A stretch of 64,000 nucleotides of DNA, taken from positions 62,001-126,000 of the forward strand of contig JAAYTZ010000018.1 in assembly GCA_012517965.1 (NCBI GenBank), read 5' to 3'. The translations under genes were made by a program, and so were the position numbers. Under the pieces are notes generated by a model that was given only the letters and a program-made list of their open reading frames with translations, was not told where the DNA came from and searched no databases. This document shows, in pieces, positions 2,285-61,102 of this stretch (positions are counted from its first letter, which is position 1; each line of letters opens with the position of its first letter). The stretch is from Propionibacterium sp. GTDB lineage: Bacteria; Actinomycetota; Actinomycetes; Propionibacteriales; Propionibacteriaceae.

Positions 2285-2460
2285 CCCGCGGAAGGGCCAC
2301 CCCTCGGGCAAGCGTCGGACGCTCGGGCAGCAGCCCGCGGAAACAACGCCACCCCGAGGCGTTTCGCGGGCGGCAGGGCCACCCCTCGGGCGATCGACAA
2401 CCGCTCGGGCAGCAGCCCGAGGAAACGAGGCCACCCCGAGGGGTGAGGACCGAGCCAGGG
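2285..2460. repeat. GC-rich palindromic intergenic repeat, copy 1
   Basis: The space between the divergent rarA and padR-like genes is filled with degenerate repeats built from CCTCGGG/CCCGAGG blocks, with the recurring core GACGCTCGGGCAGCAGCCCG. The core can fold (CTCGGG...CCCGAG). Read on the opposite strand it matches the cores at 21.8 and 23.1 kb (CTGCCCGAGCGTCCG), so three loci share one repeat family. It has no coding signature: ORFs through it are arginine-rich shadows in several frames. Confidence 0.7.
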
Positions 2461-4026: not shown

Positions 4027-5838
4027 TCAGGCGGACGGAGCCGCCTGAGCCGGCGCCTTGGCCCCCTTCTCGACGGGCTTGGCGTCCACGCCGGCCTCCT
4101 TGCGCTGCTGGGCCGAGATCGGGGCGGGCGCCTGGGTGAGCGGATCGTAGCCACCGCCCGACTTCGGGAACGCGATCACGTCCCGGATGGTGTCGAAGCC
4201 GCCCAGCAGCATGACGAGCCGGTCCAGGCCGAACGCGATGCCGCCGTGGGGCGGCGCCCCGTACTGGAACGCGTCGAGCAGGAAGCCGAACTTCTCCTGC
4301 GCCTCCTCCTCGGACAGCCCCATCACCTTGAACACCCGCTGCTGCACGTCGCGGCGGTGGATACGGATCGACCCGCCGCCCACCTCGTTGCCGTTGCAGA
4401 TGAAGTCGTAGCCGTAGGACAGTGCGGAGCCCGGGTCGGTGTCGAAGGTGTCCATCGACTCCGGCTTGGGGGAGGTGAACGCGTGGTGCACGGCGGCCCA
4501 CTTGCCGGCCGCGAGCGACACGTCGCCGGACGCCTCGGCGTCCTCGCGCAGCTTGAACATCGGGGCGTCGACGACCCACAGGAACGACCAGGCGTTCTCG
4601 TCGATCAGGCCGCAGCGGCGCCCAATCTCCAGGCGGGCGGCACCCAGGAGCTCCTGGGTCGCCTCGCGCTTGCCCGCGCCGAAGAAGATGCAGTCCCCCG
4701 GCTGGGCGCCCGTCGCGGCGGCCAGCCCGGCGCGCTCGGCGTCCGTGATGTTCTTGGCGACCGGGCCGCCCAGCTCGCCGTCCTCGCCGATCGTGACGTA
4801 CGCGAGCCCCTTCGCCCCGCGCTGCTTGGCCCACTCCTGCCAGGCGTCGAAGGCACGCCGCGGCTGCGACCCACCGCCGGGCATGACGACGGCGCCCACG
4901 TACGGGGCCTGGAAGACGCGGAACGGGGTGCCGGCGAAGTACTCGGTCAGCTCGACGATCCGGTTCTCGAAGCGCAGGTCGGGCTTGTCGGAGCCGTAGT
5001 GGTCCATGGCGTCGTGCCAGGTCATCCGCGGCAGCGGCAGCGGCATCTCGACCCCGACCAGCTTCCAGCAGGCCGCCATGACCTGCTCGGAGACGCCGAT
5101 CACGTCGTCCTGGTCGACGAAGCTCATCTCGATGTCGAGCTGGGTGAACTCGGGCTGCCGGTCGGCGCGGAAGTCCTCGTCGCGGTAGCAGCGCGCGATC
5201 TGGTAGTAGCGCTCCAAGCCCGCCACCATCAGCAGCTGCTTGAACAACTGCGGGCTCTGCGGCAGCGCGTACCAGCAGCCCGGGTGCAGGCGGGCCGGCA
5301 CCACGAAGTCCCGGGCACCCTCCGGGGTCGACCGGGTGAGGGTCGGCGTCTCGACGTCGACGAAGTCGAGCCCGTCGAGCACCCGGCGCATCGTCGACGT
5401 CACCTTCGACCGCAGCCGGATCGCCGCCGCCTGCCGGGGACGCCGCAGGTCCAGGTAGCGGTACTTCAGCCGGGCGTCCTCGCCGACCGTCGTGCGCTCG
5501 TCGATCTGGAAGGGCAGCGCCGCGGACGGGTTCAGCACCGTGAGCTCGCGGATGGCGACCTCCACCTCGCCGGTGGCCAGGTTCGGGTTCACGTTCTCCG
5601 GGGTGCGGGCGTCCACGACGCCGGTCACCTGGATGCAGAACTCGTTGCGGAGGTCGTGAATCCCGGACGCCGCCAGGTACTCGTCGCGGACGACGACCTG
5701 GCAGATGCCCGAGGCGTCCCGCAGGTCGATGAAGGCGACCCCGCCGTGGTCGCGGCGGGCGGCGATCCAGCCGGCCAGCGTGACGGTGGTGCCCACGTCG
5801 GCCTGACGGAGGGTCCCGGCCCGATGGGTGCGAAGCAT
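4027..5838 (-). CDS. aspS: aspartate--tRNA ligase
   Basis: Bacterial-type class II AspRS of 603 aa from the ATG at 5838 ([16 protein letters not shown]). In order are the N-terminal OB-fold anticodon-binding domain ([18 protein letters not shown]), motif 2 ([19 protein letters not shown]), the bacterial GAD insertion domain, and motif 3 ([15 protein letters not shown]). A short basic Ala-rich tail ends the protein. Many Actinobacteria lack AsnRS or GlnRS and rely on GatCAB, so this enzyme could be non-discriminating; the window does not decide that. No T-box or leader structure was seen upstream. Confidence 0.97.
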
Positions 5839-19817: not shown

Positions 19818-20609
19818 TCAGTCCTCGTCGAGTTGCGCGAGGATCGCGTCGGGCACGTCCTCGTTCGACCAGACGTCCTGGACGTCGTCGACGTCCTCGA
19901 TCGCGTCGAGCAGCTTGAACAGCTTCGCGGCCTGGTCCTTGTCGGTGACGGCCTGGACGAACTGGGCGCGGAACTCGGTGTCGGCCGACTCGTAGTCCAG
20001 CCCGGCGGCCTGGACCGCCTTGCGGACGTCGACCAGGTTGTTCGGGTCGCAGACGATCTTGAAGGTGTCGCCCTCGTCGGTGATGTCCTCGGGGCCGGCG
20101 TCGAGGGTCGCCTCCAGCAGGTCGTCCTCGGTCACCAGCTTGTCCGGGACGCCGCGCTCGCCGGACGGCTGCTTCTTGGCGACCTCGACGACGCCCTTCC
20201 GGTCGAACACCCGGGCGACCGAGCCCATGTCGGCCATGGTGCCGCCGTTCCGGGTCACCGCGACCTTGACGTCGGCGGCCGAGCGGTTGCGGTTGTCGGT
20301 CAGCACCTCGATCAGGATCGCCACGCCGGCCGGGCCGTACGCCTCGTACATGATGTTGGTGTACTCGACCGACTCGCCCCCCACCCCGGAGCCGCGCTTG
20401 ACCGCACGGTCGATGTTGTCGTTCGGGACCGAGTTCTTCTTGGCCTTCTGGATCGCGTCGTAGAGCGTCGGGTTCCCGCCGGGGTCACCGCCGCCAAGCC
20501 GGGCCGCGACCTCGATCTTCTTGATCAGATTGGCGAAGAGCTTGCCGCGCTTCGCGTCGATCGCCGCCTTCTTGTGCTTCGTGGTGGCCCACTTGGAGTG
20601 ACCGCTCAT
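19818..20609 (-). CDS. YebC/PmpR family DNA-binding regulatory protein
   Basis: 263 aa, starting [24 protein letters not shown], the invariant YebC opening. Conserved landmarks include [43 protein letters not shown] and FDRKGVVEV. Members are described as transcriptional regulators or as translation factors for polyproline stalls; both are family knowledge. It precedes ruvC on the same strand, a widely conserved neighbourhood. Confidence 0.95.
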
Positions 20610-20681
20610 CGGTGTCCGTTCCTGTCGCGAGTTTTTTGCCGCGGCGAGTCTAGTGCACGCGCGCGGACGCCCCCGCTGTGC

Positions 20682-21029
20682 CTACTCGCCGTGCCCCTCC
20701 GCCGGGCGGCGCCAGACCGTCGACTGGGGCCCTCGGTCCCGGGCGGTGGCGTGGATCAGGGTGTTGGCGGCGACCCGCACGCGCCGGTCCTGCGACTGGG
20801 ACGCCCACAGCAGCGCCGCCTCGGTCTCGACCGGATCGAGGACGCCGATGGCCTGCACGGCGGCGTACCGCACGGCGGCGTCCGGGTCGTCGAGGGCGAC
20901 CACGAGCGCATCGAGGGCGGGCAGGGCGGCGTCGCGCAGGTCCGTGAGGCGCAGGACGGCGGCCAGCCGCTGGGCGGGATCCCCGGCGGCGAGCGTGGCG
21001 AGGAGGGTCGCGAGGTGTTCGGCGGTCAT
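20682..21029 (-). CDS. small HEAT-repeat protein
   Basis: 115 aa from the ATG at 21029, which overlaps the hisA stop by 4 bp (ATGA). The sequence has two to three short helical repeats of HEAT/PBS-lyase type, for example [20 protein letters not shown] and [18 protein letters not shown]. No catalytic motif is present. Tight coupling to hisA suggests co-expression, but a role in histidine synthesis is not implied by the sequence. The long 365-aa ORF in this frame contains it only as its C terminus. Confidence 0.75.
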
Positions 21030-21754
21030 CGGCCGGCGACGTCGAGGGCCTCGGCCAGGGTGAAGTTCCCCACGTAGAGGGCGGTGCCGATGATGGCCCC
21101 GGTGACGCCGAGCGGCACGAGGGTGCGCAGCGCGCGCAGGTCGTCGAGGGAGGCGATGCCGCCCGAGGCGATGACCTCGGCGTCGGTGAGGGCGCACACC
21201 CGGCGCAGCAGGTCGAGGTTGGGGCCGGTCAGCATGCCGTCGGACTGCACGTCGGTGACCACGAAGGTGCGGCACCCGGCGTCGGACAGACGCCGGACCG
21301 CCTCGGCCCAGTCGCCGCCCTCGCGCACCCAGCCGCGGGCCGCCAGCCGGCTGCCCCGGACGTCGATCGCGATGCCGATGCGGTCGCCGTGCTCGGCGAT
21401 GATGCGCTCGCACCAGGCGGGGTTCTCGAGCGCCGCCGTGCCGATGTTGACGCGACGGCAGCCGGTCGCCAACGCCCGTTCGAGGGACGCGTCGTCCCGG
21501 ATGCCCCCCGAGAGTTCGACGTTGAGACTCAGGCGGGCGGTGATCTCGGCGATCCGCTCGGCGTTGGAGCCCCGGCCGAACGCGGCGTCGAGATCGACGA
21601 GGTGGAGCCACTGGGCGCCGGCGTCCTGCCAGCGCAGGGCGGCGGCGAGGGGGTCGCCGAAGACCTTCTCGGAGCCCGCGATGCCCTGGGTCAACTGGAC
21701 GGCCTGGCCCCCCTGGATGTCCACGGCCGGGAGGAGGTACAGCGAATCGGTCAC
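21026..21754 (-). CDS. hisA: phosphoribosylformimino-5-aminoimidazole carboxamide ribotide isomerase
   Basis: TIM-barrel isomerase of histidine biosynthesis, 242 aa from the GTG at 21754 ([19 protein letters not shown]). The catalytic Asp lies in LPAVDIQGG and the second in [15 protein letters not shown]; phosphate-binding loops ELSGGIRDD and [12 protein letters not shown] are clear. Some Actinobacteria use this protein as PriA for both HisA and TrpF; which applies here cannot be told by eye. TACCCT lies about 6 bp before the GTG with no Shine-Dalgarno, so the mRNA may be leaderless. An AbiEi-like gene separates it from hisH. Confidence 0.93.
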
Positions 21755-21784
21755 CGGGGAAGGGTAGCGTCCGGCCCAACCACG

Positions 21785-21935
21785 GGGCGCCCCGACCTCA
21801 CCCCCGGACGCCTCGGGCGAGCCACGCTTCCTCGGGTGGGCGACGGGACGCCTCGGGCCGGCCACGTTCCCTCGGGTTCCTGCCCGAGCGTCCGTCGCGA
21901 ACCCGAGGCGGCCGGGGGTCGAGGGGCCCGAAGGG
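21785..21935. repeat. GC-rich palindromic intergenic repeat, copy 2
   Basis: Lies between hisA and the AbiEi-like gene. It contains several CCTCGGG blocks and a core GGTTCCTGCCCGAGCGTCCG followed by TCGCGAACCCGAGG. About 40 bp of the core is nearly identical to copy 3 on the far side of the AbiEi-like gene, differing at one position. Nested CTCGGG/CCCGAG pairs give hairpins, like REP/BIME elements. Confidence 0.75.
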
Positions 21936-22002
21936 GGAGACCTGGGAGCCCTCCCCTGTGGATAACCGGGCAGCCGCGGCGCAGACGTGGTGGGGTGTGC
22001 TC

Positions 22003-22974
22003 ATGACCCCCCAGGAATGGCGTGACCAGCACCGCGAACAGGCGCCCGATCGGCGCGAACGACGGACAGCGAACCTGCGGGCCGACGACGGGCTGAGCGA
22101 GCGGGACGTGAAGCAGCGCGTGCGGGACGGGCGCCTGGTCCGGTTGCGGCGTGGCGTGCTGACGGACCGCACGGCCGAAACGCCCGTCCAGCGGCACCTG
22201 CAACTGGCCAGGGCCGTTGCCCTGCAGCGGTCCGAGCCGGTCTTCAGCCACGTCACGGCCGCGGTCGCCTGGGGGTTGCCCGTGAACAGCCGCAACCTCG
22301 ACCGGGTCTGGCTGACGCGGCGTCGGGGCCACGGCCATGGCCGGACCGTGCCCGACGCGGTCGAGAGTCAGTCCTCGTTGCGCGCCGAGGAGATCGCCGT
22401 GGCGTCGGGGCTCGTCGTGACGAGCGTGGCCCGCACGGTGGTCGACCTGGGCCGGACCTCCGCGCTCGAGTGGGGCGTGGCCGCCGCGGACGCCGCCCTG
22501 CACCGCGGCCTGTGCACCCGGGACGATCTTGAGGCAGCGGTCGCCGCCGGCAGGGGACGTCGCGGGATCGCCCGCGCGGCGCGGGCGGTCGCCTTCGCCG
22601 ATCCACGGGCGGAGTCGCCGCTCGAGTCCGTCAGCCGGCTCACGATTTCCAGGACCGACCTGCCCCAGCCGGTCCTGCAGCACCCGATCGTGCTGGCGGG
22701 CCGGAAGGTGGCGACGAGCGACTTCGCCTGGCTCGACGAAAAGGTGGTCGGCGAGTGCGACGGGGCGGTGAAGTACGGCGCGCTGCTGGCCGATGGGCAG
22801 AGCGCGCAGGACGCGGTTCTGGCGGAGAAGCGCCGCGAGGAACTGATCCGCGAGGCGGGCTGGTGGGTCGTCCGGTGGGATTGGAAGACCGCGTGGGACC
22901 GGCAGCGACTCGCTCAGCGCCTCCGCTCGGCACTGGGTTTTCAGAGCCTCGGGCCGGCGGCACGGTCGGCCTGA
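22003..22974 (+). CDS. AbiEi-antitoxin-like winged helix fused to a DUF559/Vsr-like nuclease domain
   Basis: 323 aa from the ATG at 22003 (MTPQEWRDQHREQAPD), preceded by GGTGGGG. The N-terminal part has the AbiEi-type winged helix seen in many actinobacterial solitary proteins (LSERDVKQRVRDGRLVRLRR, then VFSHVTAAVAWGLPV). The C-terminal ~90 residues resemble DUF559/very-short-patch-repair endonucleases: ESPLESVSRL, then DFAWLDEKVVGECDGAVKY (an E/D-D-ExD-K-like site) and ending RREELIREAGWWVVRWDW. No AbiEii toxin gene is adjacent. It is the only plus-strand gene within the his locus and is flanked by repeat copies 2 and 3. Function unknown. Confidence 0.8.
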   Translation: MTPQEWRDQHREQAPDRRERRTANLRADDGLSERDVKQRVRDGRLVRLRRGVLTDRTAETPVQRHLQLARAVALQRSEPVFSHVTAAVAWGLPVNSRNLDRVWLTRRRGHGHGRTVPDAVESQSSLRAEEIAVASGLVVTSVARTVVDLGRTSALEWGVAAADAALHRGLCTRDDLEAAVAAGRGRRGIARAARAVAFADPRAESPLESVSRLTISRTDLPQPVLQHPIVLAGRKVATSDFAWLDEKVVGECDGAVKYGALLADGQSAQDAVLAEKRREELIREAGWWVVRWDWKTAWDRQRLAQRLRSALGFQSLGPAARSA

Positions 22975-23014
22975 TCGGCAGACCAACTCAGTACGGGACC
23001 GCCCCTGGCCCACA

Positions 23015-23205
23015 GGACGCCCCTGGCCCACCGGACGCCTCGGGTCGGCTCCGTTTCCTCGGGTTCCTGCCCGAGCGTCCGTCGCGAGCCCGAGGCGTCC
23101 GGGCCGGAACCCGAGCGTCCGTCGCGAACCCGAGGCGTCCGGGCCGGAGCCCGAGGCGTCCGGGCCGGAACCCGAGGCGTCCGGGTCGGCGGCCGGGTGG
23201 ACGGC
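23015..23205. repeat. GC-rich palindromic intergenic repeat, copy 3, with tandem subunits
   Basis: Lies between the AbiEi-like gene and hisH. It contains the same core as copy 2 (GGTTCCTGCCCGAGCGTCCG), then roughly 20-bp tandem subunits of the form CCCGAGGCGTCCGGGCCGG repeated four times with small changes. The terminal GCCTCGGG and CCCGAGGC can pair around the core. The 177-aa ORF here is an Arg/Pro-rich artefact of the repeat. Confidence 0.8.
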
Positions 23206-23208
23206 CCG

Positions 23209-23829
23209 TCAGAGGGTGGCGACCCAGTTGCGCAGCAGGCGTCCGCCGGCCGCCCCGGACTTCTCCGGGTGGAACTGAGTGGAGCTGAGCGCCCCGTACT
23301 CGACCGCGGCGACGAACCGGTCACCGCCGTGCTCGCACCACGTCACCTGGACGCCGTCCGGCCACGCGGCGTCGTGGACGGCGTAGCTGTGCACGAAGTA
23401 GAACCGTTCCTCGGCGAGCCCGGCGAACAGCGTCGAGGAGCCCTCGGCGGCCACGGTGTTCCAGCCCATGTGCGGCAGCCGGCGCGACGTCAGCCGCTCC
23501 ACGACCCCGGGCAGGACGCCGACGCCGGCGGCCCGCACCCCGTGCTCGACGCCCGCGGCGAACATCACCTGGTGGCCCACGCAGATGCCGAGCACCGGAC
23601 GCCCCGCGGCCAGCCGCTCCCGGATCAGCGCCGGACCGCCGACCGACTCGAGCCCGGCCATGCAGGCGGCGAAGGCGCCGACGCCCGGCACGACGAGCCC
23701 GGCGGCGGAGCGCACGATCTCCGGGTCGGCGGTGAGCACGGCCTCACAGCCGGCGGCGGCGACGGCCCGGGTCGCGGAGTGCAGGTTGCCGGAGCCGTAG
23801 TCGAGCAGCGCCACCAGCGGACGGGTCAC
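23209..23829 (-). CDS. hisH: imidazole glycerol phosphate synthase, glutaminase subunit
   Basis: Class I glutamine amidotransferase that supplies ammonia to HisF; 206 aa from the GTG at 23829 ([19 protein letters not shown]). The catalytic Cys is in [12 protein letters not shown] and the His-Glu pair is in [22 protein letters not shown] and the oxyanion strand are present. It follows hisB by 43 bp. Its partner hisF is not in this window. Confidence 0.94.
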
Positions 23830-23872
23830 GGCCGATCCCCGGCTCGGCCGCGCCAACCGGCGGGGCCGCCGG

Positions 23873-24487
23873 TCACAGGGCACCCTTCGTCGACGGCACG
23901 CTCCCGGCGGTGCGGGCGTCCGGCTCGACCGCGGCCCGCAGCGCGCGGGCCAGCGCCTTGAACTGGGCCTCGACGATGTGGTGCGGGTCCCGGCCCGCCA
24001 GCAGCGTCAGGTGCACGCACAGCCCCGCGTTGAGCGCCAGCGACTCGACGACGTGCCGCGTCATCGATCCGGCGTACGGGACCCCCGAACCGCCGATGCG
24101 CGCGTACACCTGCCCGTCGGGTTCGCCCGAGCAGACGACGTAGGGGCGTCCGGCGACGTCGACGGTGCACTCGGCGAGCGCCTCGTCCAGCGGGACCCGG
24201 GCGTAGCCGAACCGGCCGATGCCGCGCTTGTCGCCCAGCGCCGCGGCCAGCGCCTGACCGAGCACGATCGCGGTGTCCTCGACGACGTGGTGGGCGTCCA
24301 CCTCGACGTCGCCGGACGCCTCGACGATCAGGTCGATCAACGCATGCTTGGCCAGCGAGGTCAGCATGTGGTCGTAGAACCCGACGCCGGTCGCCACCGT
24401 CGCCCGTCCGGTGCCGTCCAGGTTCACCTCGACCCGGACGCGCGACTCGCTCGTGACCCGCTCGGCGGTCGCCCTGCGCTCGCTCAT
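23873..24487 (-). CDS. hisB: imidazoleglycerol-phosphate dehydratase
   Basis: Dehydratase step of histidine synthesis, monofunctional form, 204 aa from the ATG at 24487 ([12 protein letters not shown]). The paired Mn-binding motifs are [14 protein letters not shown] and [26 protein letters not shown] is also conserved. Its start overlaps the hisC stop by 4 bp. Confidence 0.96.
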
Positions 24488-25572
24488 GCCTCCCCGATCT
24501 GTGCCGCGGCCGCGTAGAAGGCGGCCATCTCCTCCGGCGTCCCCGCCGAGACCCGCAGGAACCCGGCCGGTCCGGTCTCCCGCACCAGCACCCCCCGATC
24601 CAGGAGCCGCTGCCAGGCCAGGTGCCGGTCGGCGAAGCGCCCGAACAGCACGAAGTTGGCGTCCGACGGGACCACCTCGAACCCGAGTTCGGGCAGCCGG
24701 ATCAGCATCGCGTCCCGGACGCCGCGGAGCAGGTCCACCTTCGCCAGCATCTCGTCGGCGTGGGCCAGCGCCACCTCGGCGATCGCCTGGGTCTGCGCCG
24801 ACAGGTGGTAGGGCAGCCGGACGATGCGGCAGGCGTCCACGATGGCCGGCGCCGCCGCCAGGTACCCGACGCGGCCGCCGGCGAGCGCGAACGCCTTGCT
24901 CATCGTCCGCGACACCACCAGGTTGCCGAACTTGGGCAGCAGCCCCAGGGCGGACGCCTCGGGCGTCCGGCTGAACTCCTGGTAGGCCTCGTCGACCACC
25001 ACGATGGCGTCGGTGCCCTCCAGGACGGCCTCGATCACGTCCAGCGGCGTCGAGGTGCCCGTGGGGTTGTTGGGCGTCGTGATCAGCACCACGTCCGGGT
25101 CGTGCTCGTCGAGTGCCCCCAGCACCAGGTCGGCGTCCAGGGTGTAGTCGGGCCGCCGCGGCACGGTCACGTACTCGGTGTGGGTGTTGCGGGCGTACTC
25201 GGGGTACATCGAGTAGGTGGGGGTGAAGGTCAGGCAGCGGCGTCCGGGGCCGCCGAAGGCGCCGAGCAGGTGCGTCATCACCTCGTTCGACCCGTTCGCG
25301 GCCCACACGTGGGCGGCGGTCAGCCCGTAGCCGAGATAGGCGGCCAGTCGGCGGCGCAGTTCGGACGCCTCCCGGTCGGGGTAGCGGTCGATGCGGGCGG
25401 TGGCCGCCCAGATCGCGTCCGCCATCTCGCGCCGGATCGCCTCGCTCGGCGGGTACGGGTTCTCGTTGACGTTCAGGCAGACCGGCACGTCGAGTTGGGG
25501 GGCGCCGTAGGGCTGTTCCCCGACCAGTTCGGGCCGCAGCGGCAGGTCGGCCAGGGTGGGGTCGGGCCTCAC
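24484..25572 (-). CDS. hisC: histidinol-phosphate aminotransferase
   Basis: PLP-dependent class I/II aminotransferase, 362 aa from the GTG at 25572 ([16 protein letters not shown]), overlapping the hisD stop as GTGA. Conserved features are [11 protein letters not shown] near the N terminus, ITTPNNPTG, the PLP-lysine motif [17 protein letters not shown], and the C-terminal [17 protein letters not shown] containing the phosphate-binding Arg. It carries ten GGACGCC/GGCGTCC heptamers by hand count over its ~1.1 kb. Confidence 0.94.

Positions 25573-58440: not shown

Positions 58441-61102
<2,662 letters not shown>

Follow-up and report, generated by a model that had tools for sequence, protein, structure and literature searches.

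The hisA-hisH spacer of this propionibacterium holds a single gene on the strand opposite to the histidine genes, with similar palindromic repeats on both of its sides, and this raises the question of whether the gene and the repeats arrived as one unit or merely came to lie together at a place open to insertion. The window, by which we mean the whole analyzed stretch of 64,000 nucleotides, lies in a fragmented genome of 3.27 Mb (G000). The first-pass annotation placed a plus-strand gene for 323 amino acids (aa) between minus-strand hisA and hisH-B-C-D, with repeats on the two sides of the gene that share a core of about 40 bp with one difference, and direct reading of the open reading frame and repeats bears out both statements. 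The junction is composed as follows.

21026-21754, minus strand: hisA (Pfam His_biosynth, E = 1.6e-64), the left neighbor
21801-21916: left repeat array, with CCTCGGG half-sites in forward orientation at 21811, 21830, 21851, and 21870 and in reverse orientation at 21883 and 21902 (spacings, 19, 21, 19, 13, and 19)
22003-22974, plus strand: ATG-initiated gene for the 323-aa protein, with an AbiEi-type N-terminal part and a Vsr/EDxHD-like nuclease C-terminal part
23024-23197: right repeat array, with half-sites in forward orientation at 23038 and 23057 and in reverse orientation at 23070, 23089, 23110, 23129, 23150, and 23171 (spacings, 19, 13, 19, 21, 19, 21, and 21)
23209-23883, minus strand: hisH (Pfam GATase, E = 1.7e-21; the start codon may be internal), the right neighbor, from which hisH-B-C-D run on the minus strand

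The best 80-nucleotide (nt) palindromic copies on the two sides (21837-21916 and 23024-23103) are 89% identical in direct orientation, and the 41-nt core (CCTCGGG...CCCGAGGCG) of the two best window copies differs at a single base. The canonical unit of the window has four half-sites, CCTCGGG/CCCGAGG, with a spacing of 19-13-19 bp that is identical in all four complete units. An Rfam scan of positions 20000 to 25000 recovered no family. The gene sits in a spacer, apparently not in an intron or intein, and its neighbors are hisA and hisH, with no AbiEii nucleotidyltransferase toxin beside it. Searches of plasmids and phages with the family yielded three weak plasmid matches and no phage match, so that it is not a plasmid or phage gene. 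The 323-aa protein was also used as a query against the genome contigs, and relatives were not found by that search.

The his genes had been taken to be normally contiguous at this point. This is the case in most other Propionibacteriaceae, where hisH and hisA are <100 bp apart, but it fails in the Propioniciclava/Micropruina clade, most genomes of which have a junction insert of more than 1.1 kb (1.1 to 5 kb) with differing genes (loci L115 to L131, L153, L156, and L164). The cargo, labeled by sequence reading and not by family scans, includes a membrane protein, a lipoprotein, amidohydrolases, an S41-like peptidase, a catalase, serine hydrolases, and others. The junction is therefore a general insertion hot spot, and a disruption there is not special on its own. 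The search for empty sites in relatives, which the first-pass annotation had proposed, was successful in that four loci of this clade (L125, L126, L129, and L130) have an empty hisH-hisA junction of 54 to 222 bp. Once its arrays are set aside, 57 bp of the window spacer remain (46 bp next to hisA and 11 bp next to hisH), and the empty spacers of L125 and L130 measure 57 and 77 bp, respectively; as the window and empty spacer sequences do not align, the 57-bp match is an argument from length only. Neither a nucleotide-precise empty site nor a target duplication was found among the relatives compared, since these are too diverged. One genome (G012) was rejected as an empty-site comparison because its 99.7% match to another (G001) breaks off abruptly within a contig of 6 kb and has the look of contamination. 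That contig is in itself an odd case: it is 99.7 to 99.8% identical to G001 over the his region (L111 versus L112), while the genomes otherwise seem distinct, pointing to either contamination or a very recent transfer.

The relationship between gene and repeats was evaluated with a set of 92 homologs from 58 genomes of Propionibacteriales, 91 of which were scored for their flanks; flanks were called matched when the best left-right alignment score was ≥18, with ≥30 as a stricter cutoff. The window unit scores 57.5, where the 99th percentile of unrelated pairs lies at 17.5. Across the order, 71 of the 91 family copies (78%) have matched flanks versus 0.9% of 2,275 unrelated flank pairs, and at the stricter cutoff the figures are 58/91 and 0.18%; in part, the rare null matches come from pairs of homologous units or of related loci. 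Control genes reached 18 in 12 of 742 cases (1.6%), and the sole control with a score of ≥30 turned out to be a member of the family, situated at a different his junction. Outside the order, matched flanks were found for 12 of 26 copies, with a null of 0/650. Of the 71 units, 39 have their flanking repeats in inverted and 32 in direct orientation. The remaining 22% of the copies, including one in the window's own genome (C16), lack a match between left and right within 500 bp. Of 120 Actinomycetota genomes sampled, 48 (40%) contain members of the family, with up to 14 copies per genome. The proposal that gene and repeats form one unit is hence strongly supported with respect to their coupling, which extends far beyond the window locus and is absent from the unrelated cargo genes; transposition or homing of the unit is something that we only infer.

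The his junction itself illustrates the contrast. The unrelated cargo genes tested there show flank matching not above background (one is borderline at 18), whereas both family copies at the junction do have matched flanks, namely, the window gene and a distantly related AbiEi/DUF559-like gene of MAG21 (G018; L153:4754-5569; score, 36), which has its own matched repeats and lies in the same junction and orientation. The latter was considered as an ortholog of the window gene and rejected on the basis of the tree, in which, with a caveat for long branches, the two are separated and thus probably represent independent arrivals. The sister of the window gene in this tree, and its nearest homolog, is a gene of P. 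tarda (L071) at another locus.

The repeats are not confined to the flanks of the genes. The window repeat recurs without the gene at five places in its own genome, on contigs C48, C31, C56, and C49 and at one further position in the window.

2288-2451, minus strand: dispersed repeat copy without gene, with two tandem units (at 2302 and 2384) and half-site spacings of 19, 13, and 19 in each

The first-pass annotation had proposed that related genomes having the repeats without the gene at many unrelated loci, and the gene without repeats, would uncouple the two. Repeats without the gene do occur at these five places of the window's own genome, but they are better read as dispersed cognate copies. 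Its suggestion to look for further copies of the gene flanked by the same repeats did not bear fruit, as the two paralogs in this genome carry other repeats: the one on C2 is surrounded by a different repeat that is found at many places, and that on C16 (L039) has other palindromic repeats in its right flank only (4580-4880), fails the left-right test, and has its repeat present at two other places in the genome.

A comparable picture emerged from other genomes, with all dispersed copy numbers being lower bounds. When the concatenated repeats of six genes were searched against six genomes, the own genome was matched, and one weak cross-match (E = 7e-4) was seen among the matches listed. Each family copy has its own repeat sequence, which is essentially absent from the other tested genomes. 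Genomes with such cognate dispersal include G041, G001, G030, and G015, and the same own-genome pattern was seen in P. tarda, P. soli, P. sinopodophylli, G006, and Enemella evansiae, as well as in six genomes outside the order. The 88-nt repeat of G041 occurs at at least 20 further loci, all of them spacers (as delimited with a simple gene finder), and forms two hairpins with an invariant core, TTCACCGGTCGACCGGTGAA, and modest covariation of the outer stem. In E. evansiae (G026; L374 to L379), an identical 62-nt core is present in six dispersed copies whose flanks have diverged, which suggests recent spread or strong homogenization. A second repeated sequence, GGTTGAGCGAGGAGCGCAGCGACGAGTCGAAAC, is seen beside several of these copies (L375 to L379), downstream of the 62-nt core.

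Although the repeat sequences are unrelated, their half-site spacing stays at 19 to 20 bp. Among the 142 flanking copies of the 71 units, direct self-matches (11/12) occur at a shift of 19 in 33 copies, 20 in 22, and 22 in 8; other short shifts give hardly any self-match, and shuffled sequences give about zero. The inverted matches have an even spacing almost throughout, i.e., they are dyads without a central base, and the left copies are significantly self-complementary in 53 of 71 cases. Outside the order, the 19- to 20-bp period is weak. In the arrays of one clade (L263, L267, L271, and L094), the period is 22 bp and most half-sites are direct.

Turnover of the repeats is fast relative to that of the protein. 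The in-place orthologs L267 and L271 share repeats, but L289 and L291, which are likewise in place and 63% identical, have wholly different ones (within-unit scores of 57 and 42.5 versus about 10 across units), as do two paralogs in one E. evansiae genome (L256 and L259) that are 74% identical. Over all pairs, there is no global correlation between protein identity and repeat similarity (Spearman coefficient of about 0), and only close orthologs share repeats. Since such orthologs and paralogs differ in repeats that still match between left and right, the repeats must change more quickly than the protein does, and in concert on the left and the right; this calls for active copying or conversion. 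The presence of orthologs at one locus across species suggests long vertical residence.

The protein is composed of two parts.

22048-22599, plus strand: AbiEi-like part (residues 16 to 199), a winged helix and a second domain, from PADLOC, the AlphaFold2 model, and Foldseek
22600-22932, plus strand: nuclease domain (residues 200 to 310), from invariant residues and fold matches to the I-Bth0305I catalytic domain and Vsr

Residues 6 to 187 match the PADLOC AbiEi model (E = 5.5e-16), and AbiEi models are matched by 78 of 82 homologs; MTES_1575 or DUF559 is matched by sequence in just five of the 82. Foldseek searches with an AlphaFold2 model of the 323-aa protein (pLDDT, 92) recovered AbiEi (PDB code 6y8q; E = 8e-4; probability, 1.0), the catalytic domain of the homing endonuclease I-Bth0305I (3r3p; probability, 1.0; E = 0.02; TM score, 0.68 of the target), and, with weaker scores, Vsr (1cw0/1vsr). 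E208, Q226, D240, E251, D253, G254, and R278 are invariant in the 82 homologs, and K257 is conserved in ≥90%; judged from the alignment, this is the predicted active-site pattern of a nuclease. The family motif is E251-x-D253-G-x-x-K257, and the G018 copy at the his junction has the DUF559-like form E-x-D-G-x-x-H. Conservation is lowest in the winged helix, with a mean pairwise identity of 27% versus 39% for the nuclease. Family scans detected no transposase domain, and together with the fold search they gave AbiEi and Vsr/homing nuclease folds only, with no HUH/Y1 tyrosine transposase of the IS200/IS605-like type. AbiEi and Rv2827c each bind tandem 23-bp inverted repeats, their own but not those of the other (PMC7319586), and such cognate binding would fit recognition of the half-site arrays by the AbiEi part.

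Taken together, we consider it fairly probable that the locus represents a system like that of RAYTs and REPs with an unrelated enzyme, i.e., a repeat-bracketed unit in which the gene for a predicted sequence-specific nuclease lies between its cognate extragenic palindromes. The four half-sites, which in the window family follow the pattern X-19-X-13-X'-19-X', would be bound by the AbiEi part in the way that AbiEi antitoxins bind their inverted repeats, and from the array upstream of the gene the protein would repress its own expression. An array would be nicked or cut by the nuclease part, and repair would place copies of arrays, and occasionally of the complete array-gene-array unit, in other spacers and keep the repeat copies alike. 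One such unit would have been inserted in the hisH-hisA spacer, at the site that took unrelated genes in sister genomes. Binding, cutting, and mobility of the unit are thus steps that we infer. Points that weigh against this reading are the failure to find a precise empty site or target duplication, the 22% of copies without matched flanks, the long residence of orthologs at one locus, the weak 19- to 20-bp period outside the order, and the modest stem covariation in G041.

Four known systems invite comparison. The RAYT/TnpA-REP "REPtrons" (PMC3733652; also PMC2817692 and PMC3116915) likewise have a mostly single-copy chromosomal gene bracketed by palindromes that are also dispersed in spacers, and their repeats too prefer gene 3' ends, form composite hairpins, and belong to families private to a genome. 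However, the RAYT enzyme is an IS200/IS605 Y1 transposase, while here an AbiEi-type part is joined to a Vsr/EDxHD-like nuclease, and the repeats here are longer (about 50 to 90 nt), with four half-sites and 19- to 20-bp spacing; the units in the window, read directly, have no GTAG tag. AbiE type IV toxin-antitoxin systems (the agalactiae AbiEi, 6y8q, and M. tuberculosis Rv2827c) share the N-terminal fold and binding via inverted-repeat arrays (PMC7319586), the latter presumed here, but the present proteins have no adjoining AbiEii toxin and an additional C-terminal nuclease, and their arrays are also found downstream and genome wide. EDxHD/Vsr homing endonucleases (I-Bth0305I, 3r3p) and DUF559/MTES_1575 nucleases have the same C-terminal catalytic fold; they differ in that the gene here stands alone in a spacer, is joined to an AbiEi part, and has the motif E-x-D-G-x-x-K, apparently in place of EDxHD. 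Finally, CGTC-tagged REPs (PMC3733652) are also dispersed extragenic palindromes without a RAYT but have no known dedicated protein, and Actinobacteria are not reported in the text of that paper.

A different reading is that the product is an autoregulated DNA-binding protein whose arrays are genome-wide operator or nucleoid sites spread by ordinary recombination, with the nuclease acting elsewhere (e.g., in defense) and nothing being mobilized. AbiEi-type proteins do repress their own promoters via inverted-repeat arrays (PMC7319586), the upstream copy ends a median of 92 nt ahead of the start, and orthologs remain in place over long periods. Nevertheless, we regard this account as rather unlikely: the downstream copy begins a median of 12 nt past the stop codon; the dispersed copies of G041, unlike operators, tend to lie between convergent genes (11 of the 20 loci) and seldom between divergent ones (1 of the 20); the nuclease residues are invariant; and both arrays are replaceable together. 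Alternatively, in a homing-type unit, the nuclease would cut preexisting empty arrays and repair would copy the gene in, so that the repeats would be targets and not offspring. The nuclease domain is closest to a homing endonuclease, I-Bth0305I; gene-less arrays are common and often tandem, so that a gene landing in one would be bracketed; and the two arrays of the window resemble a split array. We give this little credence, as paralogs in one genome usually differ in their repeats, indicating that one gene is not spreading among the arrays of one family, and as one-gene families with dozens of empty arrays (e.g., G041) show little homing of the gene. That an orphan AbiEi antitoxin-like gene landed by chance in the his-operon hot spot, in or beside ordinary intergenic repeats, is scarcely credible and as a general account of the family is refuted by the family-wide flank matching (78% versus about 1%) and the repeats private to each gene: the hot spot indeed holds many unrelated cargo genes and the repeats occur without the gene, but that cargo is without matched flanks at the same junction, and no AbiEii partner adjoins the gene.

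Beyond the array-gene-array unit with a predicted nuclease that we favor at this locus, the evidence for and against a broader claim appears to us evenly balanced, namely, that there is a phylum-wide undescribed class in which an AbiEi part with a Vsr-type nuclease recognizes, cuts, and spreads or homogenizes a private four-half-site palindrome, with recognition and repeats coevolving so fast that orthologs and recent paralogs differ in their repeats. The family of actinobacterial AbiEi-nuclease proteins is apparently large and undescribed, its genes being usually labeled orphan AbiEi antitoxins or DUF559 proteins, and no earlier report of the gene-palindrome association was found in the open-access literature in PMC. 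Some palindrome families have no known mobilizing enzyme (PMC3733652), and the present family bears on that open question about REPs; if the broader claim is correct, REP-like repeats would have here, for the first time, a dedicated protein other than a RAYT transposase. If each gene brings its own dispersed palindromes, a large share of the short-repeat content of actinobacteria would acquire a named cause, counts of orphan "antitoxins" in defense surveys would need correcting, and changes in DNA recognition could be tested on dozens of protein-repeat pairs that evolved naturally.

Two tandem repeats of other kinds were also observed in the window. Positions 2793 to 2852 hold tandem 15-nt repeats (GGCGGTTTCGGGCCC), in a region that extends from near 2536 and apparently lies inside a plus-strand coding region, and positions 58495 to 58602 hold a 36-nt tandem repeat of three units.
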